From the NCBI GenBank assembly GCA_030455605.1, contig JAKDPD010000008.1, positions 1 to 55,252 of the forward strand: DNA of 55,252 nt, written 5' to 3'. The notes beneath the pieces were generated by a model. It was not told where the DNA came from and made no database searches. It saw nothing but the letters and a program-made list of their open reading frames with translations. Position 1 is the stretch's first letter; each line of letters starts with the position of its first letter. The stretch is from Lactobacillus sp. GTDB taxonomy: Bacteria > Bacillota > Bacilli > Lactobacillales > Lactobacillaceae. Position numbers and translations under genes: made by a program. Positions 22,106-55,252 of this stretch are shown piece after piece.

Positions 22106-22990
22106 ATGCTGGGTCAAATTCAAACAGGAAAGATTATCGATGAGAATACAACTGCCTACTTTGTGCAGGTAAAGGGAGTTACCTTTGAATGTAAAAAGCA
22201 AGAATTAACCCAAGAAGAGCGTCCCCAAATTGGGCAAGAGTTTTCTGGCTTTTGCTATGAGAATCAACATCACCAGATGATGATGACACAATTTATGCCT
22301 TTTGCGCAGGCTGATCAATATGGTTGGGGGAAAGTGACCGAAGTTCAGTCTGGACTTGGGGTCTTTGTGGATGTTGGGCTAGCTGATAAAGATATGGTGT
22401 TATCGATCGATGACTTACCATTTGAGCGTAACAAGTGGCCGAAAAAAGATGATCGTTTATTAGTCCGACTGGAAACAGATGAAAAGAATCGAATTTGGTG
22501 CAAGTTAGCGGATGAGACTGTTTTTGACCAATTAGCCACTAATTTTCCTAGCAACTTGGCCAACCGCGACTTGGTAATGACGGTTTATGGCAGTCGTGAA
22601 ATTGGCGCTTTTGGCATCACGAATGAATTCTATCGGGCTTTTATCCATCAAAGTCAAAGCCTGCGTCCGTTACGCTTGGGTGAGCAGGTAAAGGCGCGTG
22701 TGATTGGGGCAAGTCAATACGGTCGATTGAATCTTAGTGCATTACCACGTGCGTTTGAACAAATTGATGAAGATGCGCAAATGATTTTAATGAGTCTACG
22801 GCGTAAGGCGGACAAGACACTGCCATTTTCTGATAAGTCTGATGCGGCAGCAATCAAACAGTATTTTGGTATTTCAAAAGGGGCTTTTAAACGTGCTTTA
22901 GGACACCTACTAAAAGCTAAGTATTTGAAGGAAGACAAGGAAGCAGGTACTATTGCACTAGTGGCTGATCCAGAGACAGATCATGAGTAG
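22106..22990 (+). CDS. cvfB: CvfB/YitL family S1-like RNA-binding protein
   Basis: Probable post-transcriptional regulator with several S1-like OB folds and a C-terminal winged helix. The second S1 segment, WGKVTEVQSGLGVFVDVGL, is clearest. The C-terminal DAAAIKQYFGISKGAFKRALGHLLK is the signature helix-turn-helix of the family. The 294 residues agree with YitL. Orthologues affect virulence and RNA stability in Staphylococcus; the role here is unknown. Overlaps the XerD-like gene by eight bases, so translation is coupled. Confidence 0.92.
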   Translation: MLGQIQTGKIIDENTTAYFVQVKGVTFECKKQELTQEERPQIGQEFSGFCYENQHHQMMMTQFMPFAQADQYGWGKVTEVQSGLGVFVDVGLADKDMVLSIDDLPFERNKWPKKDDRLLVRLETDEKNRIWCKLADETVFDQLATNFPSNLANRDLVMTVYGSREIGAFGITNEFYRAFIHQSQSLRPLRLGEQVKARVIGASQYGRLNLSALPRAFEQIDEDAQMILMSLRRKADKTLPFSDKSDAAAIKQYFGISKGAFKRALGHLLKAKYLKEDKEAGTIALVADPETDHE

Positions 22991-23882
22991 CTTGACTGTT
23001 CAAGTGGTGCAGTATTTGCACGACATGGAAGTTGAACGCGGACTGAGTCCTAACACGGTTGCTGCTTATGGCTTGGATTTACAAAAATTTGTGACCTTTG
23101 TGACGGCGGAAGGCTTAACCACTTGGCCGACTAAAGCGAGCGATATCAATGCCTTTATTTCGCGCCAGCAGATTAAAGCGAGTTCAATGAGTCGCCTGAT
23201 TTCAAGTCTGCGCAAATTTTATCAGTGGCTAGCCCGTCAGAATATTGAAAAACTTAACCCCATGTTAGAAATCGATGCGCCTAAGCGAACGGTCAGCGCA
23301 CCCGTCGTCCTTAGTATTGCTGAATTGAGCCGGTTATTGGCTCAGCCAGATTTAAGTAAGCCAATGGGAGTACGTGATCGGGCAATCTTGGAAACGATGA
23401 TTGCAACTGGGATGCGGGTAACAGAAGTTATTACGCTAGTGGTCACTAACCTTTACCCGCAGTTACAGCTAGTTAAAGTCGCTGCACCGCGTCAACCAGA
23501 ACGTTTAATTCCTATTTCGCAGTCAGCTTTAACTTGGCTTGAACGTTATCAAAAGAATGTTCGTACGCCGAAGTTAGCGCAGTTAAAGCAAACGGAGTCA
23601 ATTTTGTTTTTAAACAATCGTGGCTCGGGCATGAGTCGCCAAGCCATCTGGCAGCGACTTAAGTATTATTGTGATCAGGCTAATATTCAGCAAGATGTTA
23701 CCCCGAATACTTTGCGTCATTCTTTTGCCCGTCATTTATTGGACCGCGGCGCCAATTTACAGGTTGTACGAACTATTTTAGGTGGCAGTGACCCGATTAA
23801 CTCGCAACTTACTGCAACCTTATCACCGCAACAGGTGCTTGAGGTTTATCGACAGTTGCAGCCACAGATAACAGGTGATTAA
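22983..23882 (+). CDS. XerD-like protein lacking most catalytic residues
   Basis: It has the fold and length (299 residues) of XerD, with an N-terminal SAM-like core-binding domain (1-95) and a catalytic domain. Aligned on E. coli XerD by spacing, catalytic Arg148 is kept as Arg145 (GMRVTEV) and Arg247 as Arg245. Lys172 is Pro169 (AAPRQPER), His244 is Asn242 (TPNTLRH), His270 is Gly268 (ILGGSD) and the nucleophile Tyr279 is Thr277 (SQLTATL). Strand exchange is therefore not expected. The frame is intact and flanked by cvfB and ribT-scpAB, the classical xerD locus. A non-catalytic 'XerD-like' class is known in streptococci, which use XerS. Function is unknown, perhaps DNA binding linked to ScpAB. 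Confidence 0.9.
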   Translation: MSSLTVQVVQYLHDMEVERGLSPNTVAAYGLDLQKFVTFVTAEGLTTWPTKASDINAFISRQQIKASSMSRLISSLRKFYQWLARQNIEKLNPMLEIDAPKRTVSAPVVLSIAELSRLLAQPDLSKPMGVRDRAILETMIATGMRVTEVITLVVTNLYPQLQLVKVAAPRQPERLIPISQSALTWLERYQKNVRTPKLAQLKQTESILFLNNRGSGMSRQAIWQRLKYYCDQANIQQDVTPNTLRHSFARHLLDRGANLQVVRTILGGSDPINSQLTATLSPQQVLEVYRQLQPQITGD

Positions 23883-24230
23883 ATGCTAATAACGTATAAG
23901 TCAGACTATGAAAAGATAACAATGGGTTTATTGTCTTATTTGCCCGATTTTCGGAATTTAGATAATTTAAAAGAAGAAATGCACCTCAATCAGGTTACTC
24001 CTGATTTTCAACTGTACCTGTATCAGACAGGGGATGACAATAAAGTGGGAGTAGTTGGCGTCCAAGTTACCGAAGGGTTTCTGGTAATTCGTTATCTGTC
24101 ACTAGCACCGGGCTACCGTGATGATCACCAGCGCCAGATAGTTGTCACGGAATTAATGCATGAATATCCTAAGAGACGGGTTTCAGCATTACCGGAATAC
24201 AGTTATTTATTGAAGTTTGCTACCAAATGA
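23883..24230 (+). CDS. ribT: RibT-like GNAT-family protein
   Basis: A 115-residue protein of the RibT family, a small acetyltransferase-fold protein encoded at the end of the Bacillus riboflavin operon. It starts MLITYKSDYEKITMGLLSYLP and continues VGVVGVQVTEGFLVIRYLSLAPGYRDDHQRQIVV, matching the GNAT beta4-alpha3 region, although the acetyl-CoA loop is weak. Substrate unknown. It starts the base after the XerD-like stop and its last codon overlaps the scpA start (ATGA). The riboflavin synthesis genes are absent here, so RibT stands as an orphan. Confidence 0.82.
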   Translation: MLITYKSDYEKITMGLLSYLPDFRNLDNLKEEMHLNQVTPDFQLYLYQTGDDNKVGVVGVQVTEGFLVIRYLSLAPGYRDDHQRQIVVTELMHEYPKRRVSALPEYSYLLKFATK

Positions 24231-24970
24231 TGGCGACTAGCGCAGATTTAACGCTTGAATTACCAAATTTTGAAGGCCCACTAGATTTGTTACTTCATTT
24301 GATTAAATCACAAAAAATTGATATTTATGATATTCCAATTGCCAAAATTACAAGCCAAAATTTGGCTTATTTGCAAGCAATGAAGCAGCTTAATTTACAG
24401 CTCGCCGGTGAGTTCTTTTTAATGTCCTCCACCTTATTACGGATTAAATCGCAGTATCTGTTGCCACAGAATGATTTTGATCCAGAGCCAGAAGAAGATG
24501 CCGATCCGCGTGATGAGCTTGTCCAACAGCTAGTTCAATACGATGCCTTTAAAAAAGCAGCTGATTTTTTAAAAACACGGGCCGAAGTAGTGCCGCCAAT
24601 GCTCGCTAAAGAGGCTAGTGTCAGTGAGACGAAGACGATTAAACCGCTACCTTTGGGACAATTAGAAGCGAACGATTTAGCCAGGACTTTTCAGTTAGTG
24701 CTACATCGGTTAAAGCTCAGTCAGCCCCAGCTGGCACATTTAACAATGAATGAGCGGCCGATTACCGATATGATTGATTTGGTGTGCAAGCGCGTGCAGT
24801 CAGGAAACCAAGTTAGTTTCTTTGCTTGTGCCCGGACCCTAGCTAGCTTGTCAGATGTTATTGGACTATTTCTGGCTTTGTTGGAGCTGGCAAAGAAAAA
24901 TGTGATTAAGGTAACTCAGGCAACTGCTTTTGGGGATTTAAATTTTGAAGGAATTGATTACAATGACTAA
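24227..24970 (+). CDS. scpA: Segregation and condensation protein A
   Basis: Kleisin subunit of the SMC-ScpAB condensin complex that organises and separates chromosomes. The conserved N-terminal motif [20 protein letters not shown] binds the SMC neck. RIKSQYLLP follows, and a C-terminal winged helix contacts the SMC head. The 247 residues are normal. The start overlaps ribT by four bases (ATG at 24227, a second ATG at 24230), and the end overlaps scpB by eight bases. Confidence 0.97.
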
Positions 24971-25544
24971 ACAAGCAGATTTAGAAGCATTGTTGTATGT
25001 GGCTGGGGATGATGGTATTACGACTGATAACTTAGCCGTTTTACTGGAACAGTCGCCAGCGGGTGTCTCAGCATTAGTAACGACAGTCAATCAGCAGTTG
25101 CAACAGTGCCAAGCGGGTTTAAAACTGATTCAGCTTAATGACCGGTATAAGATGGTAACCAGCGACCAAGTCGCTGGGGTCATAACTGACTATTTTCAAC
25201 GTGATTTGTCTAAATATTTGAGTCAATCGGCGCTAGAAATCCTTTCAATTATTGCTTATCGTCAGCCCATCACGCGAATTGAAGTCGATGAGATTCGGGG
25301 CGTTAATTCCAGTGGCGCGCTACAAACCTTAATTTGGCGAGGATTAGTGCGACAGAACGGTAAGAAGGATGCACCTGGACATCCTAACTTATACATCACT
25401 ACCGATTATTTTTTACAATATTTTGGCTATCATGATTTATCGGATTTGCCTGACTTAGGTAAGTTTACGGATCTTGAACAAGCCGAGGAAGTGACGTTGT
25501 TTCCAGATAGTCCATTAGATCATACGAAAGAGCAGAATAAATAA
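24963..25544 (+). CDS. scpB: Segregation and condensation protein B
   Basis: Dimeric winged-helix partner of ScpA in condensin. I chose the ATG at 24963, behind GAAGGA, which gives 193 residues beginning [15 protein letters not shown]. The signatures [25 protein letters not shown] (second winged helix) and [17 protein letters not shown] are present. It overlaps scpA by eight bases and rluB starts the very next base after the stop, so the block cvfB to rluB is one tightly packed operon. Confidence 0.97.
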
Positions 25545-44292: not shown

Positions 44293-44307
44293 ATACTAAA
44301 TTTTGTT

Positions 44308-44351
44308 ATAATATCATCAAACTAAGGCTAATTTGATGATATTATTTTTTT
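44308..44351 (+). terminator. Terminator of topA
   Basis: ATAATATCATCAAA (44308-44321) pairs perfectly with TTTGATGATATTAT (44332-44345), 14 bp, then a T run. The stem is almost all A/T. Confidence 0.8.
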
Positions 44352-44415
44352 AGTCACGTAAGCTAGTAAGTGATATTAAAACGCTTAAATTTAAACGCAG
44401 AAAACGAGGATTATG

Positions 44416-54114: not shown

Positions 54115-54152
54115 CAAAAAAACAACTGAGCTAATGACTCAGTTGTTTTTTT
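54115..54152. terminator. Bidirectional terminator overlapping the xerS end
   Basis: AAAAAAACAACTGAG pairs perfectly with CTCAGTTGTTTTTTT around a 7-base loop. The last codons and the stop of the minus-strand recombinase lie inside one arm. Confidence 0.9.
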
Positions 54153-55215
54153 GCTCTGCTAGATTACTGATTTCATGTAAGGCTTCTTTTTGCACGGTTT
54201 GATCAACGTGCGTATAAAGATCAGTCGCACTGGTGCCTTTTTGACCAAGTTGTTGTGACACGAGCACTTGGTCTTTAGTAATGTTGTACAGCTCGCTGGC
54301 CAAGGTATGACGTAATTTATGGGGGGTAAGGGGATGGCCAAAGGCAGTCGAATATTTTTTGACGAGTTTTTCAACTGAGTTAGCCGTAATACGCCTCGTG
54401 TTGCCATGATAAATAGTTAGAAAGAAGGCCGTATCCTTTTTTAAAGCGTGATAGCGCTGTGCGCGCAACGCTTGGTACTGTTTGAGATATGGCATGGTCC
54501 ATGGTGCAATGGGCACACTGTCACGTTGCCCGCCTTTACGTGTGACATCAAGCATATTTTGTTTCCAGTTGATATCAGCTAAGTTAACATTAACTGCTTC
54601 AGAAACTCGAACGCCTGTTCCTAGTATCAGTGCAATTAATGCAAGGTCACGTTCTTTATTAATTTTAAACGCTGGTAAAGCCCGTTTATCGCAATGCTGC
54701 TCATACTCATTATTAATGAAAGTCATAAAGGTGAATTTCATTTCACCACGATACATATGACTGGCCATGGCATGGGCACGATAATTTAACGTTTGGGTAT
54801 TATTTAAGGAGTCAATCTTCAGCATCACATTGCGTTCAAAATATGGCTCACCATTTTGATTATCCGCAGTAATGGTTAAGAATTTAAATAGCGATCGTAA
54901 GGCATTGATTGACCGATTAATGGACGTAGGAGAATTTAAATGCCTCTGAGCGTTCATTGAATGACGTAAATGATCAACATACAGCAGCAAATCATCACGG
55001 CGCAGATGTGCCAAAACTTCGGTGGGAACAGCTTTATTGGTTTTGGCAGTGGTAATGCCAGTGGCACGTAGCCAGTCAAAAAAACGCCTAATTTCAGTTA
55101 AATATTGGTAGGTGGTCGTAATCGCATGATTAGTTCCTAAATAAAATTCATTAACGTAAGTCGGTAATTTAGCTAATTCGACTTCGATTAGGCCAAGGTA
55201 ACGATCTGATTCCAT
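54139..55215 (-). CDS. xerS: XerS-type tyrosine recombinase
   Basis: Likely resolves chromosome dimers at a difSL-type site as a single recombinase. At 358 residues it matches XerS (about 356) rather than XerC/XerD (about 300). The N-terminal layout LPTYVNEFYLG...TTTYQYLTEIRRFFDWLRATGI also fits. Catalytic residues are Arg203 (GVRVSE), Lys227 (TRKGGQRD), His299 and Arg302 (TPHKLRH) and Tyr334 (TDLYTHV). The fifth residue, usually His in LGH, is Gln325 (LGQKGTSATDLYTH). Start at 55215 behind GAAAGGA. The dif site, normally upstream of xerS, would lie beyond the window. A phage integrase is less likely because no phage gene adjoins. Confidence 0.85.
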   Translation of the reverse strand: MESDRYLGLIEVELAKLPTYVNEFYLGTNHAITTTYQYLTEIRRFFDWLRATGITTAKTNKAVPTEVLAHLRRDDLLLYVDHLRHSMNAQRHLNSPTSINRSINALRSLFKFLTITADNQNGEPYFERNVMLKIDSLNNTQTLNYRAHAMASHMYRGEMKFTFMTFINNEYEQHCDKRALPAFKINKERDLALIALILGTGVRVSEAVNVNLADINWKQNMLDVTRKGGQRDSVPIAPWTMPYLKQYQALRAQRYHALKKDTAFFLTIYHGNTRRITANSVEKLVKKYSTAFGHPLTPHKLRHTLASELYNITKDQVLVSQQLGQKGTSATDLYTHVDQTVQKEALHEISNLAEQKNN

Positions 55216-55252
55216 TTAATTTTTTCCTTTCAAATAGTGATTAGTCATAAGT

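Follow-up and report, generated by a model that had tools for sequence, protein, structure and literature searches.

Catalytically inactivated XerD proteins recur in Lactobacillus lineages that carry XerS: a possible recombination-independent role at the terminus

XerD of Bacillus subtilis reportedly unloads SMC at the terminus (Karaboja et al. 2021, as cited in later papers). The same protein keeps its role as a recombinase. In streptococci, which are XerS organisms, a relative of XerD known as XerD-like protein is reportedly not needed for dif recombination. According to citing papers, B. subtilis XerD expels SMC from ter independently of recombination (PMC8523169) and unloads SMC at the terminus (PMC12322038, PMC8357415, PMC8242196), and a 2026 paper ties this unloading to dif itself (PMC13342612). 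The nearest precedent found in the literature searched is the survey of Kono 2011 (PMC3025954), which reports XerS beside XerC and XerD in Lactobacillus helveticus, a possible intermediate, and states that the XerS site of this species could not be found. No catalytically inactive XerD kept in Lactobacillus was found named in the titles and abstract openings of that literature, which consisted mostly of open-access papers.

The gene studied here, termed xerD*, codes for a homolog of XerD and lies in the window, that is, the whole stretch of DNA analysed (55,252 nucleotides from a Lactobacillus sp.; Table 1). Comparison with named relatives likewise puts the window in this genus. Its reading frame runs from ATG to TAA without interruption, and the coordinates agree with the initial annotation, which had described a complete frame overlapping cvfB and abutting ribT within the condensin operon. 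The gene order cvfB-xerD-ribT-scpA-scpB is the same in the window as in two relatives with an intact XerD, which indicates that xerD* stands at the orthologous place. The adjacency of xerD to scpAB is thus the arrangement of intact relatives too and, therefore, no proof of a common function.

Table 1. Positions of the features discussed, in window coordinates
Feature	Position	Strand	Basis and remarks
cvfB	22106..22990	+	8-base overlap with xerD*; name from the initial annotation, no NCBIfam match
xerD*, catalytically inactivated XerD homolog, 299 aa	22983..23882	+	ORF, alignment to E. coli XerD, TIGR02225
Pro169 codon CCG, at the catalytic Lys place	23487..23489	+	codon read directly, alignment
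Asn242 codon AAT, at the first catalytic His place	23706..23708	+	codon read directly, alignment
Gly268 codon GGC, at the second catalytic His place	23784..23786	+	codon read directly, alignment
Thr277 codon ACT, at the nucleophilic Tyr place	23811..23813	+	codon read directly, alignment
ribT	23883..24230	+	first base directly after the xerD* stop; name from the initial annotation, no NCBIfam match
scpA, condensin kleisin subunit	24227..24970	+	matches five models, each of them for ScpA; the best, 189.8 bits, stays below its cut-off like the others
scpB, condensin subunit	24945..25544	+	TIGR00281 140.9 bits, cut-off 89.2
topA-hslV gap, 120 bases, xerC missing	44293..44412	+	controls carry xerC directly before hslV
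xerS, intact single recombinase XerS, 358 aa (R203 K227 H299 R302 Y334)	54139..55215	-	NF003462 462.7 bits, cut-off 267

An alignment with E. coli XerD (1a0p; phmmer 6.6e-49) covers residues 7-285 and shows the protein to lack four of its six catalytic residues. The catalytic series R-K-H-R-H-Y reads R-P-N-R-G-T in xerD*: R145 and R245 are kept, while Lys, both His and Tyr are replaced by P169, N242, G268 and T277 in the numbering of the window, positions which we take to be Lys172, His244, His270 and Tyr279 of E. coli XerD. The catalytic Lys corresponds to position 169, and position 172 is occupied by the second Lys of GKGxK. The loss of four of the six catalytic residues, which a Tyr and His in a shifted position would have refuted, had been claimed from the beginning, together with the opinion that misalignment was unlikely, and both claims stand. 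Misalignment or a shifted active site is ruled out by the alignments with E. coli XerD and with Lactobacillus XerDs and by the invariance of Y289; 39 intact XerDs all have this next downstream tyrosine too, and it is therefore not a shifted nucleophile. A sequencing error is unlikely because all four replacements are identical in the separate assembly of Lactobacillus sp. UBA5804 (G065).

At the family level, xerD* scores 273.1 bits with the XerD model TIGR02225, below its cut-off of 329.6, and only 42.8 bits against a cut-off of 178 with the streptococcal XerD-like model NF002685. The initial annotation had likened it to the streptococcal class; membership of that family is ruled out by the latter score. 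The predicted model of xerD* has good confidence (mean pLDDT 86.4), falling to 57-67 in blocks over residues 271-299, the region of the lost Tyr. Its best PDB match is XerD itself (1a0p, E 2.5e-16), with a TM-score of only 0.47 and an rmsd of 13, so that the two domains are set differently in the model and in 1a0p.

A search of 75 Lactobacillus genomes for XerD, XerC and XerS demonstrated that xerD* is not a lone odd gene and that it recurs across several lineages of the genus. XerD was above the cut-off in 65 genomes, inactivated at the same locus in seven, cleanly deleted in two (G069, G070) and without any match in one (G068, 59% complete). The seven inactivated cases are the genome of the window (G000), UBA5804, L. 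corticis (G047), S11A_St_2 (G077), Lactobacillus sp. LL6 (G024), G007 and UBA5815 (G001). All seven keep open frames of about 290-300 codons and R245, all seven have lost the catalytic Lys and the second His, and they differ from one another at R145, at the first His and at the Tyr. The residue check took 61 of 74 loci, leaving out 13 distant ones, and 55 of them carried all six residues, five were inactivated (L106, L138, L147, L161, L163) and L179, a weak partial match, was set aside. In G069 and G070 the deletion lies between cvfB and ribT and the gene order otherwise runs on (L188, L189), so the role of xerD is dispensable in one lineage. The ScpA of these two genomes is 42-44% identical to that of the window, compared with 50-61% in the other relatives examined, UBA5804 aside. 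A search of a plasmid collection with the xerD* protein returned only places of less than 60% identity.

The origin of these inactivations was addressed with a quick tree of six neighbouring proteins, for which 63 rows had enough markers; 18 near-duplicate or partial rows were dropped by hand and 45 were used. On this tree the XerD state changes at least four times, deletion counted. Holding the clade of the window together with LL6/G007 was rejected (p 0.0012), as was holding it together with UBA5815 (p 1e-68) or LL6/G007 together with UBA5815 (p 1e-55); a common placement of UBA5815 and G069/G070 was not rejected (p 0.158), and LL6 and G007 are sisters with a support of only 70. Since a common origin is rejected pairwise for the three inactivated groups, inactivation of XerD arose at least three times.

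The partner of XerD has gone as well. A separate XerC-like match is present in 64 of the 65 genomes with XerD above the cut-off, the exception being G086 (71% complete), and none was found in any of the ten genomes without a normal XerD (seven inactivated, two deleted and G068), an absence that weighs less for UBA5815 (69% complete) and G070 (67% complete). In four of four controls (G018, G020, G067, G090) xerC lies directly before hslV, and it is absent from this place in all seven genomes that could be tested there (G000, UBA5804, G007, LL6, S11A_St_2, L. corticis and G069), G070, G068 and UBA5815 being not testable; in the window the place is a short gap between two genes which we take, from reading their proteins, to be topA and hslV. 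The assembly of the window's genome (1.27 Mb, 85.85% complete) contains three Phage_integrase genes: besides xerD* and xerS there is one on contig C34 that codes for an integrase of about 253 aa. Neither a replacement XerC nor a second XerD was found in this assembly.

XerS of at least 63% identity is present in nine of nine genomes without working XerCD (the seven inactivated, G069 and G070), and many Lactobacillus genomes have it together with an active XerC and XerD. All 33 XerS sequences aligned retain the catalytic R, K, H, R and Y. Many tyrosine recombinases have His or Trp at the position of the second His, where all 33 XerS sequences have Gln (residue 325 of the window's protein). The reverse loss also occurs: six genomes, each at least 96% complete (G020, G044, G056, G067, G089, G090), keep XerC and XerD, and a genome search found no full-length XerS of at least 60% identity in them, XerS being split in G020 and represented only by relatives of 46-50% identity in G044, G056 and G089. 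Another XerS-like recombinase, some 370 aa long and sharing 46-50% identity with the XerS of the window (41% in LL6), was found in G007:C3, G024:C3, G044:C13, G052:C22, G056:C15, G063:C14, G089:C11, G020:C27 and G019:C81, with a broken copy in G022:C17.

Near xerS lies a near-perfect palindrome, CATTAAAACTATAATTTTAATG, exact in 24 of 30 xerS loci and with at most 4 mismatches in 27 of 30; the window's own xerS locus ends before it. Its core, AAAACTATAATTTT, is common to difSL, and the palindrome is called difSL-like here; it provides a candidate for the XerS site. With at most 2 mismatches it occurs in 54 of 75 whole genomes, where the reversed control pattern never occurs, and each of the seven inactivated genomes carries its core without a mismatch. 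It was not found at this threshold in the whole genomes of G069 and G070, the latter having a 4-mismatch version near xerS (L048). The cumulative GC-skew maximum is 120-2,311 bases from the difSL-like site or xerS in the four genomes measured (LL6, G007, G018, G069). In the genome of the window, the site is on another contig (C1:46185-46206, L225), 217 bases from its end, and the window itself ends at position 55252, 37 bases upstream of xerS. These two ends are probably neighbours, because xerS and the site lie near them.

The difSL-like site also served to examine the place of dif. All 13 controls have a dif 355-701 bases away from it, free of mismatches in 12 of them and with 2 mismatches in the other; these controls were chosen among genomes with a difSL-like match, and for some of them the dif match was already known beforehand. 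In these 13 genomes (loci L232-L244) dif, the palindrome and xerS fall within about 1.3 kb, so that a single locus close to the turning point of the GC skew houses both dimer resolution systems. By contrast with the controls, dif is absent near the difSL-like site in six of six testable inactivated genomes, where the best match has 4-7 mismatches; in UBA5815, the seventh, the contig begins at the site. Genome-wide, among the matches listed, 36 of 38 intact genomes have dif with at most 2 mismatches and the other two (G043, G019) only with 3; UBA5815, G007 and LL6 have only 3-mismatch matches, and within 3 mismatches there is none in G000 or UBA5804, assemblies about 85% complete. L. corticis has, among the matches listed, one with 2 mismatches, which does not share a contig with its difSL-like site, and S11A_St_2 has a single match; dif may therefore have diverged or moved in these two genomes. 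Sequences like the XerD arm of dif occur near xerS in UBA5804 and L. corticis, and in a more degenerate form in G000.

The initial annotation had reasoned that a dN/dS near one would mean decay. In one sister pair, formed by the window and UBA5804 with their four common replacements, xerD* has an omega of 0.139 (bootstrap 0.067-0.245; 19 nonsynonymous and 37 synonymous changes), close to the values of scpA and scpB. As this is far from 1, xerD* is not in simple decay. It is the second highest value among ten genes compared in the same pair (scpB 0.168, scpA 0.102, ribT 0.086, pfkA 0.074, xerS 0.072, rluB 0.057, cvfB 0.039, part of dnaE 0.034, pyk 0.023) and exceeds all 25 pairs of intact XerDs (0.012-0.072; Ks 0.08-0.9, pairs sharing species), which means that purifying selection on xerD* is relaxed compared with intact XerD but real. 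The constraint is also uneven. Taking the positions that never vary among 39 intact XerDs of the genus, mean retention in the seven inactivated proteins is 83% for the N-domain (28 residues), 87% for 216-236 (10 residues), which we take to be the DNA-contact helix, and 54% for the catalytic box, 237-285 (40 residues), a comparison of related rows, uncorrected and with region limits set by hand. The N-terminal domain and the presumed DNA-contact helix are thus kept and the catalytic box is not.

This pattern bears on two rival readings. If xerD* were a pseudogene that has been leaving slowly since XerS took over, its open frame a mere leftover, one would understand the relaxed catalytic box, an omega that exceeds those of intact pairs by a factor of about 2 to 12 and the outright deletion in G069/G070; nevertheless, the upper bound of omega between two species that already share the four replacements, the frames open in all seven genomes and the difference in retention between domains make such a slow departure unlikely. 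Alternatively, the frame might be open only through translational coupling to ribT-scpA-scpB, as the tight junctions with cvfB and ribT could suggest. Coupling selects against stops, not against the amino-acid changes that omega registers, and the gene order continues without xerD in the two deleted genomes; we regard this explanation as very improbable.

The reading that we favour, at about even odds, is that dimer resolution switched to XerS and that xerD* was kept for a recombination-independent DNA-binding role, perhaps, by analogy with B. subtilis, the unloading of SMC-ScpAB. On this reading the XerC/XerD-dif system is gone, with xerC missing from its place, dif not found and XerD deprived of its cutting residues, and XerS with the difSL-like site at the terminus would take over dimer resolution, making catalysis by XerD redundant. 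XerD would retain a second task, binding DNA of the terminus region and making SMC-ScpAB complexes come off, and with only this task left the DNA-binding parts would have stayed and the catalytic box decayed. We infer from the genomes that XerS resolves dimers in the window's Lactobacillus; going by its conserved residues, xerD* probably still binds DNA, its binding place would be the terminus region and its likely partner SMC-ScpAB. SMC unloading is the simplest known role left once XerS makes catalysis redundant, and this would explain the repeated inactivation. That at least three lineages independently turned XerD into a dedicated non-cutting unloader of SMC-ScpAB after the takeover by XerS, thereby creating natural separation-of-function versions, is a more tentative proposal, somewhat short of even odds. 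The initial suggestion of a non-catalytic DNA-binding role tied to ScpAB or the terminus fares unevenly: retention without catalysis is backed by the repeated inactivation, the loss of XerC and of dif from its place, the presence of XerS and its site and the constrained frame, but the tie to ScpAB or the terminus stays conjectural, since the adjacency is common to intact relatives, half-sites do not clearly cluster at the terminus and one lineage has lost the gene.

If unloading is tied to dif, whose place is empty here, xerD* would need other binding sites. XerD half-sites showed weak clustering at the terminus when set against composition controls (anagrams), although the raw counts alone looked striking. 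In LL6 and G007 together, the half-site 10-mer has 16 terminus-directed and 4 opposite copies in 800 kb, which ranks 70 of 1260 anagrams; taken alone these genomes rank 37 and 255, the intact G018 ranks 149 and the xerD-less G069 ranks 763. The 12-mer stands out in G007, with 4 copies (21 of 16632 anagrams have as many or more), but not in LL6, with 1; it has 2 in G018 (one being dif) and 0 in G069. One half-site about 7 kb from the terminus is common to G018 and G007, inside a long reading frame in both, and its conservation may therefore come from the protein. This result, together with the kept DNA-binding parts, would suit a recruitment of xerD* to some other DNA-binding job unconnected with SMC, such as that of a regulator. 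Such a recruitment would be needed in at least three lineages, a repetition that an older second function of XerD explains simply, and we judge it quite unlikely.

Some other recombinase complexes contain partners that do not cut, and xerD* could likewise be accessory to XerS when dimers are resolved, or to FtsK at the terminus. XerS does accompany xerD* in all seven inactivated genomes; however, it also coexists with active XerC and XerD, occurs without any XerD in G069 and G070, and has as its candidate site a near-perfect palindrome, which renders an accessory partnership rather unlikely. A XerD that is unable to recombine and yet under selection, and this in several lineages, would testify from the side of evolution to such a second role of XerD, and nature would thereby supply proteins that already have one role without the other. 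Different stages of the change from two recombinases to one are also seen within Lactobacillus.

Compared with known systems, xerD* resembles the XerD of XerCD/dif (TIGR02225) in whole-length homology, gene place, predicted fold and both catalytic Arg, and differs from it in the lost catalytic Lys, both His and Tyr, in a score below the cut-off, in the lack of XerC and in a dif that was not found. With the streptococcal XerD-like protein (NF002685; MF_01817 in the initial annotation) it shares being a XerD relative in a XerS organism, but that model is shorter (245 positions) and fits far worse than TIGR02225. As to XerS/difSL of streptococci and lactococci, the XerS of the window scores above the model's cut-off and the candidate site is linked to the gene near the GC-skew turning point, while the arms of difSL differ from those of the difSL-like site, which in control genomes adjoins dif. 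In B. subtilis, unloading of SMC by XerD is tied to dif in the later paper (PMC13342612), whereas genomes with xerD* lack dif at its place; even so, a recombination-independent role such as that of the B. subtilis protein would fit a catalytically dead xerD* that remains under selection.
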